64,000 bases of DNA from Caballeronia peredens. Lineage in GTDB: Bacteria; Pseudomonadota; Gammaproteobacteria; Burkholderiales; Burkholderiaceae. This document shows, piece by piece, positions 40,447 to 63,047 of the stretch. The stretch is taken from positions 62,001 to 126,000 of the forward strand of contig FCOH02000013.1 in NCBI GenBank assembly GCA_001544595.2. Reading direction: 5' to 3'. Each line of letters starts with the position of its first letter. Positions within the stretch are counted from its first letter, which is position 1. A program made the translations under genes and the position numbers. A model generated the notes under the pieces. It saw only the letters and a program-made list of their open reading frames with translations, was not told where the DNA came from and searched no databases.

Positions 40447-41241
40447 ATGCCTCTCGCCGAAGTAAACGGAACCCGGATTCACTATCGCGTCGATGTCACG
40501 GCGGGCGACGACGCCCCGTGGCTCGTGCTGTCGAATTCGCTCGGCGCCGATGTCTCGATGTGGACGCCGAACATCGAGGCGTTCGCGCAGCGCTATCGCG
40601 TCGTGCGCTACGACACCCGCGGCCACGGTCATTCGGATGTGCCGCCCGGGCCGTACACGATCGATCAACTGATCGGCGATGTGATCGGACTGATGGATCA
40701 TCTGAAGATCGAGCGCGCGAACTACTGCGGCCTGTCGATGGGCGGGCTGACCGGCATCGGTCTCGCCGCGCGTCATCCTGCGCGTTTCGCGCGCGTCGTG
40801 CTCTCGAACACGGCCGCGCTGATCGGCTCCGACGCCGTGTGGACGCCGCGCGCCGCGAAGGCACGCGAGCCGGGCGGCATGCCCGCGCTCACCGACGCCG
40901 TGATCGCGCGCTGGTTCACCGCGCCGTTCATCGAGCGCGAGCAGCTCGAACTCGCGAATATCCGCGACGTGTTCCGCCACACTTCGGGCGACGGCTACGC
41001 GTCGAACTGCGAGGCGATCCGCGACGCCGACCTGCGCGGCGAAGCCCGAACGATCACGTTGCCGGTGCTCGTGATCGCGGGCACGCACGATCTGTCGACC
41101 ACGGCCGAGCAGGGCCGCGAACTGGCGGGTTATATCGGTGGTTCGCGCTACGTCGAACTCGACGCGGCGCATCTGTCGAACATCGAAAAGCGCGACGACT
41201 ACACGCGCGCCGTCCTCGACTTTCTCGGAGAACAACAATGA
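40447..41241 (+). CDS. pcaD: 3-oxoadipate enol-lactonase
   Basis: A 264-residue alpha/beta-hydrolase that opens the enol-lactone ring to 3-oxoadipate. Nucleophile Ser97 lies in YCGLSMGGLTG, with VIAGTHDLSTT and DAAHLSNIEKRD giving the acid and His. The ATG at 40447 gives the usual MPLAEVNG start and is preceded by AGGAG. Its stop overlaps the pcaC start by four bases. Confidence 0.95.
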   Translation: MPLAEVNGTRIHYRVDVTAGDDAPWLVLSNSLGADVSMWTPNIEAFAQRYRVVRYDTRGHGHSDVPPGPYTIDQLIGDVIGLMDHLKIERANYCGLSMGGLTGIGLAARHPARFARVVLSNTAALIGSDAVWTPRAAKAREPGGMPALTDAVIARWFTAPFIEREQLELANIRDVFRHTSGDGYASNCEAIRDADLRGEARTITLPVLVIAGTHDLSTTAEQGRELAGYIGGSRYVELDAAHLSNIEKRDDYTRAVLDFLGEQQ

Positions 41242-41621
41242 CCGACGACGAACGCTACGAAGCCGGCATGCGGGTGCGCCGCGCGGTGCTGTCCGACGCG
41301 CACGTCGACCGCTCGCTCGAAAACCGCACCGAGCTCACGACCGAATTCCAGAATTTCATCACCCGTTACGCGTGGGGCGAGATCTGGACGCGCGAGGGTT
41401 TGCCGCGTCATACGCGCAGCCTTCTCACCATCGCGATGATGGTCGCGCTCAACCGCGGCGAGGAACTCGCGCTGCATTTGCGCGCCGCGAAGAACAACGG
41501 CGTGACGCAGGACGAGATCAAGGAAGTGCTGATGCAGACGGCCATCTATTGCGGCGTGCCGGCGGCCAATTCGGCGTTCCATCTCGCGCAGAAGATCTTC
41601 GACGAAGAGCAAAAAGCGTAA
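41238..41621 (+). CDS. pcaC: 4-carboxymuconolactone decarboxylase
   Basis: A 127-residue CMD-family protein that decarboxylates 4-carboxymuconolactone to 3-oxoadipate enol-lactone. It starts MTDDERYEAGMRVRRAVL and has the family stretch TLAALNRGEELALHLR-like sequence and EIKEVLMQTAIYCGVPAAN. It is a separate gene, not fused to PcaD as in PcaL of some bacteria; the ATGA overlap gives coupling. It ends the operon before a strong two-way terminator. Confidence 0.95.
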   Translation: MTDDERYEAGMRVRRAVLSDAHVDRSLENRTELTTEFQNFITRYAWGEIWTREGLPRHTRSLLTIAMMVALNRGEELALHLRAAKNNGVTQDEIKEVLMQTAIYCGVPAANSAFHLAQKIFDEEQKA

Positions 41622-41650
41622 ATCTCGCCGATGCGCCGTGCGGTTCGCGC

Positions 41651-41687
41651 AAAGCCGTCTTTCGGGAAATCCGGAAGACGGCTTTTT
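41651..41687. terminator. bidirectional terminator between pcaC and the DUF3443 gene
   Basis: AAAGCCGTCTT (41651-41661) pairs with AAGACGGCTTT (41675-41685), followed by more T on the plus strand and preceded by A-rich sequence for the minus strand. It lies between convergent genes. Confidence 0.88.
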
Positions 41688-41698
41688 GCTTTCATGCT

Positions 41699-43009
41699 TC
41701 AGAACGCGTAGTACGGGCCGGCGCCCGCGGGCGTCGCGCGGCCCTGGATCGCGGTGAAGACACGCCGGCCGTAGAAGAACGGCAAGCCCCAGTCGAAGAA
41801 GCCGCTCGCCGCGCCGGCGAGATTGTCGAAGGCGAAGTTGCCCGTGCCGAACAGCGTCGTCGACGCGGTGACCGTGAAACTGACCGCGCCTTGCGTGCCG
41901 ACCGGCGAACGGATCGTCGCGGAGAAAGTTTGCGGCGTGGCCGGGCAATACCACACGCCGCACTTGGCGAGCGTCGTCGACGGAAAGAAGACGGCGTTCG
42001 ATCCGCTGTCGATGAAACTCGAGCCGTACTGGCTGCCGCCAAAATCCGTCGTGACGTAGCCCGTGGCCGAATTCGACGGAAGCACGGTCGCCGAGCCGAG
42101 CAGATTGTTCGACTGCGAGCCGATGCCGAAGGTCAGCGTGCCCGTCACCGACGATGCGCCGCTGTCCGGCACGTCCGGCAGCTCGATCAGCACGCCGTTG
42201 TTGTCGGTGGCGAAGTTGGCGACCGGATTGGTCACCTGCCGCGCCACCGCCACCGCGCTCGCCGCGCAACCGTCGGCGCCGCAGTCGTAATACCAGCGCG
42301 GCATCGCCGAGTTGGAGCAGTTGCTGCCGCAATCGGCGACGAACGGGCCGACGCCGAGAATGCCGTTGCCGCGCAACGACGACGCGCTCAGCATCGGCAG
42401 GCCGGACTGGCTGCAGTCCGTCGCGGCGCCGGGCACCGCGCTGTCGGCGATGACCTGCACGGAGGTCGAGGCCGCGACCTGACCGGCGAGCTTCACGTCG
42501 GCCTGACGCACCGCGCCCCACGTATAGCCCGAGCCGAACACGGCGCATTCGGCGACGACCGAGTTCGGCGCGCCACCGGCAACGAGCGGAAGCGCGACGG
42601 CCGGAGCAAGCGCGGACGCCAGCACGCGCAATCCGTGCGAGCCGGTATCGACCTGAATGTTGTCGACGGTCTGGCACGCGTTCGTGCCGGGCACGCAGAT
42701 CGTCACGCTCGTTTGCAGCATGTTGCGCGTGCTGGTGGGCGTGCGCGTGACGGTGATCGGCTGGACGTTGGGCGTCGTCGATTGCGTGACGCTCGTGCTG
42801 GCGGGGCTCGGGGCCGCGGGCGCACTGGTGTTCGCCGGAGCGCTGGCCGTCGCGGGCGCGCTCGTCTGCGCGGGACTTGCGGGCGCGTTGCCGCCGGAGT
42901 CGCTGCCACCGCCGCCGCCACCGCCACCGCAGGCGACCAGGAGCGCGCATAGCAGCATGCAGAGCAGAAGCGCGGGCGAGAAGGAAAAGGGAAGGGCGCG
43001 GGATTGCAT
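41699..43009 (-). CDS. DUF3443 lipoprotein with pepsin-like motifs
   Basis: A 436-residue exported protein of the DUF3443 family. A lipoprotein signal ends LLVAC (Cys27), with Gly at +2 favouring the outer membrane. A Gly/Ala/Ser/Pro linker (28-80) precedes the main domain. That domain carries, in order, VDTGSHGLRV (Asp121), FGSGYTWG, NGILGVGP, LTFGIG, FIDSGSNAVFF (Asp334) and a closing WGLPFFYGRRVFTAI. This is the series found in pepsin-like (A1) aspartic proteases: two D-T/S-G motifs, flap, hydrophobic-Gly and last strand. Catalysis is inferred, not known. AGGAG overlapping the stop of the upstream DUF2844 gene couples the two. Confidence 0.9.
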   Translation of the reverse strand: MQSRALPFSFSPALLLCMLLCALLVACGGGGGGGGSDSGGNAPASPAQTSAPATASAPANTSAPAAPSPASTSVTQSTTPNVQPITVTRTPTSTRNMLQTSVTICVPGTNACQTVDNIQVDTGSHGLRVLASALAPAVALPLVAGGAPNSVVAECAVFGSGYTWGAVRQADVKLAGQVAASTSVQVIADSAVPGAATDCSQSGLPMLSASSLRGNGILGVGPFVADCGSNCSNSAMPRWYYDCGADGCAASAVAVARQVTNPVANFATDNNGVLIELPDVPDSGASSVTGTLTFGIGSQSNNLLGSATVLPSNSATGYVTTDFGGSQYGSSFIDSGSNAVFFPSTTLAKCGVWYCPATPQTFSATIRSPVGTQGAVSFTVTASTTLFGTGNFAFDNLAGAASGFFDWGLPFFYGRRVFTAIQGRATPAGAGPYYAF

Positions 43010-43017
43010 GTCGGCTC

Positions 43018-43476
43018 CTATTCGATGTCAGTCGCACTGACGCCCGGCGGCAGCGCGCTCGCGAGCCATGCGCGGCCGCTGAACTCGCGCAGCCGCATGC
43101 GGTTTTCGACGACGAGATCGCCCTGCGCGACGCGCGCCGTGTGCAGGCCGGCCGCGCCGATCGTCGCATTCGCGCCCTCCTTGAACGTGTCGAAATAGGC
43201 GCCGAGAAGCGACTGGACATTCGGCATCGCGGGCCCGCGCCAGGACACCGCGTAGACCTTGCCGCTCGAATCCACGTATTCACGCACGACGATGCCGCTC
43301 GGATCGGTCGTCTCGTGATACTCGACGAGACCGCTCTGCGCCCGATGTATCACGTCGCCGGCCGCGCTGTCCGCGTCGCGCGCGGCGCCGAGTTGCGCGT
43401 GGGCAGGCATCGCTGCGACGAGCGAAACTGTGGCCAGCAGACTCGCTATGTAATAAGGATGACTGATTGATTTCAT
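43018..43476 (-). CDS. DUF2844 secreted protein
   Basis: A 152-residue protein with a signal peptide (1-27, ending MPAHA) and a mature part of the DUF2844 family (DPSGIVVREYVDSSGKVYAVSW, LLGAYFDTF). Function is unknown. It lies eight bases upstream of the DUF3443 gene, and the two families commonly occur together in Burkholderiaceae as I recall. A partner, substrate or inhibitor role for the DUF3443 protein is a guess. GGAGA lies about ten bases before the ATG. Confidence 0.88.
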   Translation of the reverse strand: MKSISHPYYIASLLATVSLVAAMPAHAQLGAARDADSAAGDVIHRAQSGLVEYHETTDPSGIVVREYVDSSGKVYAVSWRGPAMPNVQSLLGAYFDTFKEGANATIGAAGLHTARVAQGDLVVENRMRLREFSGRAWLASALPPGVSATDIE

Positions 43477-43890: not shown

Positions 43891-45111
43891 ATGACAGATT
43901 TTCGTGTAACCAAGCGGATGGCTGCGCTTTTCGTGGTGGCCGGAATCGTTGCGGGATGCGGTTCGTCGAATCCCAATGCGTTCAACTACAAGAGCGATCA
44001 GCGTTCGAAACAGGTGTCTCTCGCCGTTCCGCCGAATCTGCTCGACGAGGCGGCCGACCAGCGTTCGCTTCCGCCGCAGGGCGGGCAGGCGTCGCTGTCC
44101 GATCTGCAGCAGATTCAGAAAGTCGCCCCGAACGCACCCACGGTGGTTCCGCCGGTGTCGGGCATGCGCATTCAGCGCGACGGCGCCGAGCGCTGGCTCG
44201 TCGTCGACGGCAAGACGCCCGATCAGGTGTGGCCGCAGATCCGCCGCTTCTGGCAGGAGCAGGGCTTTCTGCTCGTCGTGGACCAGCGCGACAAGGGCGT
44301 GATGGAAACCGACTGGAACGAAACCCATCCGCAGATTTCCGACGGCCTGATTCGCGACACGCTCGCCAAGGCGACCGGCAACGCGTATGTCACGGCCGAG
44401 CGCAACAAGTACCGCACGCGGCTGGAGCAGGCGCCCGACGGCGGCACGTACGTGTTCATCAGCCAGAAGGGCATGCGCGAAGCGCTTACCGGCGTGAACA
44501 ACGATTCGAGCCAGTGGCAGGCGCGTCCGAACGATCCGGCGCTCGAGAACGAATATCTGAAGCGCCTGATGTCATCGCTGTCACTGGCGGATCAGCGGCA
44601 GGCTTCGGGCGGCGCGACGTCGCTCGACACGCCGGCCGTGGCCGGCGCCGCGCGCACCGCGCCTGGCGCCGCGCCCAAGGGCGGCGATGCGAAGGCCGCC
44701 GCGGTTGCCGCGCAGAACGTCGCGAACTCGGGCAACACGCCGATCAGAAACGAAGTCGTGCCCGAGGCCGAGTCGTCGCAACTGACCTTGCCGGAAGCCT
44801 ACGATCGCGCGTGGCTGCGCGTGGGCATCGCGCTCGATCGCGCGAACTTCACGGTGGACGACCGCGACCGCGCGAAGGGCGTGTACTACGTGCGCTACGT
44901 GGATCCGACCGACAAGACATCGGCGCAGCAGGGCTTCTGGAGCCAGGTGTTCCACGGCCGCAAGGAAATGAAGGCGAAGCAGTATCAGATCAACGTGCGC
45001 GCGCTGACCGAACAGCAGACGCGCGTGGCGATCGTCGACGACAAAGGCCAGGTCGATGCCTCGCCGCAGGCCCGTCAGATCATGGCGCTGCTCGCCGATC
45101 AGATCAGCTGA
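43891..45111 (+). CDS. bamC: outer-membrane assembly lipoprotein BamC
   Basis: A 406-residue BamC (NlpB/DapX), an accessory lipoprotein of the BAM complex that inserts beta-barrel proteins. A lipoprotein signal ends at Cys23 (GIVAGC), followed by the unstructured N-terminal segment and two helix-grip domains (AERWLVVDGKTPDQVWPQIRRF; LTLPEAYDRAWLRVGIALDR) joined by an Ala-rich linker. It is longer than E. coli BamC (344), mainly through the linker. It has its own promoter and terminator and stands without dapA, its usual neighbour. Confidence 0.93.
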   Translation: MTDFRVTKRMAALFVVAGIVAGCGSSNPNAFNYKSDQRSKQVSLAVPPNLLDEAADQRSLPPQGGQASLSDLQQIQKVAPNAPTVVPPVSGMRIQRDGAERWLVVDGKTPDQVWPQIRRFWQEQGFLLVVDQRDKGVMETDWNETHPQISDGLIRDTLAKATGNAYVTAERNKYRTRLEQAPDGGTYVFISQKGMREALTGVNNDSSQWQARPNDPALENEYLKRLMSSLSLADQRQASGGATSLDTPAVAGAARTAPGAAPKGGDAKAAAVAAQNVANSGNTPIRNEVVPEAESSQLTLPEAYDRAWLRVGIALDRANFTVDDRDRAKGVYYVRYVDPTDKTSAQQGFWSQVFHGRKEMKAKQYQINVRALTEQQTRVAIVDDKGQVDASPQARQIMALLADQIS

Positions 45112-61976: not shown

Positions 61977-63047
61977 ATGCCGCGCCCCCTTTCTGCAACA
62001 ATCCATACCGCCGCACTCGCCAACAACCTGGCCATTGCGCGCAAGTACGCACCGAAATCCAAGATCTGGGCCGTCGTCAAGGCCAATGCTTATGGCCACG
62101 GTCTTGCCCGGGCGTTCCCCGGATTGCGCGCGACGGACGGCTTTGGCCTTCTCGACCTCGAAGAAGCCGCGAAGTTGCGTGAATTGGGCTGGGCCGGGCC
62201 GATTCTTCTGCTCGAAGGCTTTTTCCGTCCGACCGATATCGACGTAATCGACCGCTACAGCCTGACCACGGCCGTGCACTGCGACGAGCAGTTGCGCATG
62301 CTGGAGATGGCGCGCCTGTCGAAACCGGTGAACATTCAGCTGAAGATGAACAGCGGCATGAACCGCCTGGGCTACACGCCGGAGCGCTATCGCGCGGCGT
62401 GGGAGAGGGCGCGCGCCGTGCAGGGCGTCGGGCAGATCACGCTCATGACCCATTTTTCCGATGCCGACGGCCCGCGCGGCATCGCGCATCAGCTGGAAGC
62501 GTTCGAGCGCGGCGCGGAGGGCATCGCGGGCGCGCGCAGCCTGGCGAACTCGGCGGCGGTGCTGTGGCATCCCGACTCACATGTCGACTGGGTGCGTCCG
62601 GGCATCATGCTGTACGGCGCGTCGCCGTCCGGTGTGACCGCCGACATCGCCGGTATCGGTCTCAAGCCCGCCATGACGCTGCATTCCGAACTGATCGCCG
62701 TGCAGACGGTGCCGGCGGGACACAGCATCGGCTACGGCTCGACCTTCACGGCGGGCAAGCCGATGCGCATCGGCGTGGTGGCGTGCGGCTACGCGGACGG
62801 CTATCCGCGCGTGGCGCCGGAAGGCACGCCGGTGATCGTCGACGGCGTGCGCACGAAGCTCGTCGGCCGCGTGTCGATGGACATGCTCACCGTCGACCTC
62901 ACGCCATGCCCGAACGCGGGCATCGGTTCGCGCGTCGAGCTGTGGGGCACGCATCTGCCGATCGACGACGTGGCGAGCTCGGCCGGCACGATCGGCTACG
63001 AACTCATGTGCGCGATCGCCCAGCGCGTGCCGGTGCGCGCCGAATGA
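61977..63047 (+). CDS. alr: alanine racemase
   Basis: A 356-residue PLP-dependent alanine racemase that supplies D-Ala for peptidoglycan. PLP Lys35 lies in [10 protein letters not shown], and the second acid/base Tyr in [20 protein letters not shown] and [12 protein letters not shown] are typical. Length is standard, and no signal peptide is present, so it is the cytoplasmic biosynthetic form rather than a periplasmic broad-spectrum racemase. It is followed by radA after 59 bases. Confidence 0.96.

Follow-up and report, generated by a model that had tools for sequence, protein, structure and literature searches.

Does Caballeronia peredens carry an exported relative of pepsin under the name of an uncharacterised family? 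The question is raised by a gene on contig FCOH02000013.1 (assembly GCA_001544595.2), of which we analysed a stretch of 64,000 nucleotides (contig positions 62,001 to 126,000, hereafter the window). The gene, on the minus strand at 41,699–43,009 of the window, encodes a protein of family DUF3443, and an original prediction made from the sequence alone had read this protein as a cryptic pepsin-type aspartic protease. Two papers describe bilobed pepsin-type enzymes as uncommon among bacteria and, PecA excepted, as confined to the cell interior (PMC2761423; PMC6819658). Our answer is that the DUF3443 proteins are very probably bilobed aspartic proteases of pepsin type that belong to the bacterial envelope, with DUF2844 as their dedicated partner, and a bacterial pepsin family thus appears to have been overlooked. 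The reading is based on the predicted fold, the conserved catalytic residues, the sequence relation between the N-lobe and PecA, the lipobox and the gene pairing; we infer the activity, its acid-type pH behaviour, the membrane and its side, the substrate and the role of DUF2844.

Predicted fold and active-site residues

The gene and the parts of its product are laid out as follows (L, G and C numbers in the text are our own handles for loci, genomes and contigs).

41699..43009, minus: DUF3443 gene (436 residues, ATG start), predicted bilobed pepsin-type aspartic protease lipoprotein (open reading frame list, PF11925 match, AlphaFold2 model, fold matches)
42929..43009, minus: predicted signal sequence and lipobox LLVAC with lipidated Cys27 (sequence reading)
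42779..42928, minus: low-complexity linker of Gly, Ala, Pro, Ser and Thr, residues 28–77 (sequence reading; the Pfam domain begins at 78)
42254..42784, minus: N-lobe, residues 76–252, boundary set by us (PE-PGRS_C match, E 1e-4)
42638..42649, minus: first active-site loop, Asp121-Thr-Gly-Ser124 (conservation; strand end in the model)
42515..42538, minus: flap hairpin FGSGYTWG, residues 158–165, with Phe158 probably at the place of pepsin Tyr75 (conservation and model)
42344..42367, minus: N-lobe psi-loop motif NGILGVGP, residues 215–222 (conservation of G216 and G219)
41702..42253, minus: C-lobe, residues 253–436 (the model covers both A1 lobes)
41999..42010, minus: second active-site loop, Asp334-Ser-Gly-Ser337 (conservation)
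41747..41791, minus: C-lobe psi-loop and closing strand WGLPFFYGRRVFTAI, residues 407–421 (conservation of G408, P410 and F411)

A Pfam scan assigns residues 78–436 of the window protein to PF11925 (DUF3443; E 2.5e-131, 438.4 bits against a cut-off of 25), and at E ≤ 10 this is the sole match, with no second family. The AlphaFold2 model has a predicted local distance difference test score (pLDDT) of 96.2 and spans both lobes of the family A1 enzymes, and structure comparison gave an all-beta two-lobed match along the full length. In the model the Asp121 loop lies at a strand end, and strands 151–157 and 161–174 flank the flap turn. Structure prediction and fold comparison have thus returned a pepsin-type fold and not an unrelated one, and the DUF3443 fold, as modelled, is pepsin-type and bilobed. 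The crystal structure of PE_PGRS16 (4EHC) was not among the 50 fold matches listed in either comparison.

Conservation was read from an alignment of 90 rows, consisting of the window protein and 89 relatives (98 hits minus eight partial open reading frame pieces from L034, L046, L049 and L063 and one weak hit); L070 repeats the window gene itself, and many of the others are closely related. Asp121, Thr122 and Ser124 are each present in 90/90 rows. Asp334 is present in all 89 rows that have a letter there, the sole gap belonging to a circular permutant, L067, and since L067 carries both DTGS and DSGS, both aspartates are present in every one of the 90 rows. The first loop is DTGS in 86 rows, DTAS in two and DTES in two, and the second is DSGS in 80, DSGT in six and DTGS in three of 89; the window copy has both loops intact, as DTGS and DSGS. 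Around them, the flap columns are kept (F158 in 86/90, with Tyr in two; W164 in 88/90; G165 in 90/90), as are the psi-loop glycines of the N-lobe I-L-G motif (G216 and G219, both 90/90) and of the C-lobe D-W-G motif (G408 in 89/89 rows with a letter, W407 in 73/90, and Asp instead of the first hydrophobic residue in 74/90). P410 and F411 of the closing strand occur in 86 and 88 rows, and ten cysteine columns, each kept in at least 76 of the 90 rows, fit an exported protein with disulfides.

The motifs quoted in the original prediction are all found in the minus-strand reading frame and in the order given there, with VDTGSHGLRV at 120–129, LTFGIG at 292–297 and FIDSGSNAVFF at 332–342 in addition to those listed above. 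The proposed Asp121–Asp334 spacing of 213 is exact and equals the family median (range 202–234). With a pepsin-type predicted fold and both aspartates kept in all aligned rows, the proposal of a cryptic pepsin-type protease is supported, and its remark that the flap Tyr is not clearly kept agrees with the Phe found in that column.

The permutant L067 (L067:946-2274, from a Syntrophaceae metagenome-assembled genome) runs from signal and linker to C-lobe and then N-lobe; it could be real or an assembly artefact. Its break falls between the lobes and coincides with the boundary that we set, which supports that boundary.

Relation to PecA and family A1

Of 38 N-lobes taken in isolation, 15 match PF20729 (PE-PGRS_C, aspartyl peptidase-like) at E ≤ 1, the best at 1.5e-6 (the lobe alignments hold 38 rows each, L034 and L067 being left out). 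The window N-lobe matches with E 1e-4 and 22.2 bits, and the next-best family for the N-lobes besides DUF3443 and PF20729 stands at E 0.021. In full-length members PE-PGRS_C appears once in 40 at E 2.1e-5, and in a one-genome search L101, which is the gene of relative P0003, gives E 7.9e-5; Pfam scans of the full-length window protein and of full-length P0003 returned no PE-PGRS_C.

A profile built from five PecA-like proteins (L097-L100 and L102) matches penicillopepsin over both lobes (E 0.0072) and finds 18 sequences at E ≤ 10, which are pepsin-type or HIV-type by name, some being named just 'Protease'. A local alignment of the same profile with the DUF3443 N-lobe gave E 3.7e-5; a plain HMMER search with this profile against 5464 open reading frames of the loci at E ≤ 0.01 returned its own five proteins only and no DUF3443. 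Profile–profile scores were compared with 60 column-shuffled nulls per comparison, using the five PecA-like proteins and six bacterial A1 proteins. The DUF3443 N-lobe scored 40.0 against the PecA-like N-lobes (nulls 0/60, best 20.4), 24.6 against the bacterial A1 N-lobes (0/60, best 19.2) and 20.8 against its own C-lobe (0/60, best 16.8), and the C-lobe scored 20.7 against the A1 N-lobes (0/60). Chance resemblance of motifs was rejected on the strength of column-shuffled nulls.

The comparison of hidden Markov models, which had been proposed as a check, links the N-lobe to the PecA-like and A1 N-lobes in local mode, which alone gave signal; hhalign in global mode yielded nothing useful for DUF3443 against either the bacterial A1 or the PecA-like profiles, and the C-lobe did not join the A1 C-lobes. 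Homology of the C-lobe to A1 is suggested by motif position and predicted fold. The kinship proposed with pepsin and shewasin holds for the fold; by sequence, the nearest characterised relative among those found is the PE-PGRS_C/PecA domain, not pepsin or shewasin.

PecA shares with DUF3443 the N-lobe sequence relation, the DTG/DSG pair, the aspartic-protease fold and its nature as an exported, surface-associated bacterial protein. It differs as a PE_PGRS protein of a type VII secretion pathway, whereas DUF3443 is a predicted lipoprotein with ten commonly conserved cysteines and a near-constant DUF2844 neighbour; in place of the PE/PGRS N-terminal region of PecA, the window protein has a lipobox signal and a short linker. 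PecA reportedly cleaves itself and processes mycobacterial surface proteins, its predicted active site being DTG 293–295 and DSG 470–472 (PMC6819658).

With family A1 (pepsin, rhizopuspepsin, penicillopepsin and the Irpex lacteus aspartic proteinase 1wkr) DUF3443 shares the two-lobed full-length fold, two D-[TS]-G loops, the flap hairpin and the psi-loop glycines. Identity is 13–20% among the structural matches listed, and DUF3443 differs from A1 in the lack of a PF00026 match, the flap Phe, the lipid anchor and the absence of an evident folded propeptide. The retropepsin-like APRc and the osmotic-stress enzymes of P. aeruginosa are also bacterial aspartic proteases. Retropepsin-like proteases are by type single-lobed and dimeric, whereas DUF3443 has both lobes in a single chain.

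The seven bacterial pepsin homologues of PMC2761423 allow a comparison at the level of residues. A flap Phe substitution occurs in two of the seven (PMC2761423). Shewasin is likewise bacterial and bilobed, and the Leu found at the pepsin Asp303 place in Shewanella and Colwellia (PMC2761423) recurs as DUF3443 Leu409 (80/90 rows in the motif alignment). For these homologues the paper predicts no signal peptide and assumes an intracellular location (PMC2761423), whereas DUF3443 has a signal. At the pepsin Thr218 place six of the seven have Ala, a change linked to neutral-pH activity (PMC2761423), whereas DUF3443 has Ser or Thr (Ser337 column: Ser 83, Thr 6 of 89). Because Ser337 keeps a hydroxyl at this place, an acid-type pH optimum would be expected by analogy; Leu409 is a less clear signal on the optimum.

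The PF20729 search also picks up, with weak matches, the proteobacterial proteins L097-L100 and L102, and matched one of 14 control genomes (Deinobacterium chartae). These five proteins have two DTG/DSG-type loops and mostly signal-like N-termini, L100 has a CGGGG-type lipobox and comes from a genome (G292) that also carries DUF3443, and together they may be a further set of exported, pepsin-like proteins that has gone unnoticed in bacteria. Two bacterial PF00026 proteins, L090:304-2472 and L091:355-2331, extend about 250–300 residues C-terminal of their protease part.

Export and the DUF2844 partner

A lipobox-like pattern precedes the DTGS loop in 66 of the 89 relatives, judged by sequence only. 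Visual inspection of the remaining 23 shows a close variant in 19 (LLHACGGG, for example); L058 and L068 begin at a contig end, L034 has none, and L067 has one outside the scored stretch. The window protein is, by its predicted lipobox, a lipid-anchored lipoprotein. The Lol rule concerns an Asp at position +2, and the window lipoprotein has no Asp there; the DUF3443 protein may be located at the outer membrane.

43018..43476, minus: DUF2844 gene (152 residues, signal sequence), immediately upstream of DUF3443 (PF11005, E 4.6e-34)

Eight bases separate the DUF2844 stop codon from the DUF3443 start, and the two genes likely form one operon. They adjoin on the same strand with DUF2844 first at 82 of 88 DUF3443 loci (the 88 include genes represented repeatedly: window/L070/L087, L071/L086 and L074/L101), and four of the six unpaired loci (L027, L049, L058 and L068) begin less than 200 bases from the end of the fetched DNA. 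Eight loci hold two tandem pairs, and every DUF3443 there has its own DUF2844. Tree distances of the two families correlate over 82 pairs (Pearson 0.82, Spearman 0.67; L070, L086, L087, L101, the permutant L067 and short pieces left out), though shared species history could explain much of this. Among 140 Burkholderiaceae genomes DUF2844 occurs in 62 and DUF3443 in 63, with 62 in common, the extra one being a partial DUF3443 in G653. The unit is the DUF2844–DUF3443 pair rather than a single gene. No third conserved operon member was evident by eye in crude gene calls at 11 distant loci, made without a family search. Some divergent DUF3443 copies have no reported DUF2844 match alongside, e.g., G410:C20, G589:C6 and G618:C3.

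Pepsins are usually kept inactive by an N-terminal propeptide. Since the DUF3443 domain is preceded by low-complexity linker only and the gene directly upstream encodes a small exported partner, our guess from the gene pairing is that DUF2844 acts on the protease as an inhibitor, folding chaperone or prodomain in trans. A known inhibitor family finds no support as an identity for DUF2844, 14 members of which matched no other Pfam family at E ≤ 0.1. The same lack of a tie to known inhibitors, together with the signal sequence and the nearly constant adjacency, is compatible with another role for DUF2844 beside an active DUF3443 protease, namely that of its chief substrate or of an envelope protein that is co-transcribed but otherwise unrelated, rather than that of a regulator; we give this a substantial though minority chance, as a direct complex accounts better than a general substrate for the one DUF2844 copy per protease copy, seen also in the eight tandem arrays. 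A more specific proposal, which we regard as somewhat doubtful, is that the pair is a split zymogen, an outer-membrane pepsin with its inhibitory or folding prodomain made as a separate, upstream-encoded exported protein, duplicated and inherited as a unit. If true, Burkholderiaceae and other bacteria would have a regulated system for processing envelope proteins, comparable to PecA on the surface of mycobacteria.

Rival readings, distribution and neighbouring features

In the mechanism that we propose, the DUF3443 protein would be exported and lipidated on Cys27, with the linker, some 50 residues long, as a flexible tether between membrane and domain. The cleft between the two lobes would hold a water molecule, activated by Asp121 and Asp334, that cuts the peptide under the flap hairpin, with Phe158 replacing pepsin Tyr75, and the targets would be proteins of the envelope or outside it. 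The protease, without an evident folded propeptide, would be made together with DUF2844 as its small exported dedicated partner.

Several results weigh against this reading. Foldseek TM-scores (template modelling) are moderate, 0.49–0.56 by query length among the matches listed, which indicates that lobe orientation or insertions differ from known enzymes. PF00026 does not match the window protein at E ≤ 10 and is absent from the lists for 40 full-length members, 38 N-lobes and 38 C-lobes and from the window's genome; searches of the PDB with the protein (phmmer), the family profile and each lobe profile returned no protease. The window N-lobe stays below the curated PF20729 cut-off of 33 bits, none of the 38 C-lobes matches PF20729, ten distant full-length members gave no PE-PGRS_C at E ≤ 0.1, and the score of the C-lobe against A1 C-lobes (16.7) is reached by 2/60 nulls and is not significant. 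By motif alignment and the model hairpin the flap Tyr75 of A1 is missing, with Phe158 instead; DTAS or DTES replaces DTGS in 4/90 rows, including the second copy in the window's genome (L071). PE_PGRS16 is reported to share the fold but to have shown no activity (PMC6819658). On the partner side, DUF2844 is missing from upstream stretches longer than 2 kb at L050 and L069.

The missing PF00026 match and the weak C-lobe signal would be expected if short DTGS and DSGS loops had arisen by chance in an unrelated beta-rich protein; the AlphaFold2 model and the fold matches speak against this, and we consider it hardly credible. A stronger rival holds that the pepsin fold is kept as a non-catalytic binding or structural module of the envelope. 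The replaced flap Tyr and the changed DTG loops would suit such a pseudo-protease, and inactive A1 relatives exist; we nevertheless judge it improbable, given that the catalytic columns rank with the best conserved ones, a constraint that binding by itself would not impose, and that the window copy keeps both loops. An active protease family remains the preferred reading, within which members with a DTAS or DTES loop may be weakened or inactive. Such possible paralogues are L071 (C37:142399-143460 of the window's own genome) and L076, both with DTAS, and, with DTES, a single copy from the tandem pairs of L059 and another from those of L060.

If true, a lipid-anchored family would make exported bacterial pepsins commoner than assumed; one DUF family would gain a function and a second a lead, with a bearing on the origin and timing of the two-lobed pepsin. 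No paper found names DUF3443 or DUF2844 or describes a lipid-anchored pepsin-fold family with a dedicated partner; most subscription journals and web databases lay beyond the search, and an InterPro or predicted-structure assignment may exist. The pepsin fold and mechanism are already known, and it is the lipid-anchored family with its partner that appears new within the literature searched.

The window genome (6.73 Mb) has two DUF3443 copies and two DUF2844 copies, one next to each. The closest of 69 DUF3443 loci are nearly all titled Caballeronia, a few carrying the older name Burkholderia, with at most 83% identity in the best segment. DUF3443 is found in 57 of 58 genomes sampled from the genus and in 11 of 398 phylum-wide genomes (own included in both; ten of the 11 above cut-off), and PF00026 in seven of 398 in a phylum sample of equal size (six above cut-off). 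Single members occur in metagenome-assembled genomes titled Acidobacteria, Terriglobia, Myxococcales, Deltaproteobacteria and Bdellovibrio. DUF3443 is fragmented or interrupted by stop codons in L034, L046, L049 and L063, as well as in a number of small genomes from the genus (e.g., G400, G402, G422, G441 and G446); some reduced genomes with a broken copy are titled Candidatus or symbiont, which suggests that the gene decays in host-restricted lineages.

Around the gene pair, one further feature was marked.

41651..41685, strand not assigned: terminator-like hairpin of 16 pairs, 3' of DUF3443 and between convergent genes (terminator scan)

This single site was reported on the plus strand, and the count of one against a shuffle mean of 3.0 is not significant. 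A 604-codon open reading frame opposite the DUF3443 gene (41138-42952, plus) is most likely the usual by-product of GC-rich coding DNA and not a gene. The divergent neighbour at 43891-45111 (plus) is, by the look of its sequence, a putative outer-membrane assembly lipoprotein BamC/NlpB, and a similar gene also adjoins the pair in Trinickia (L036).
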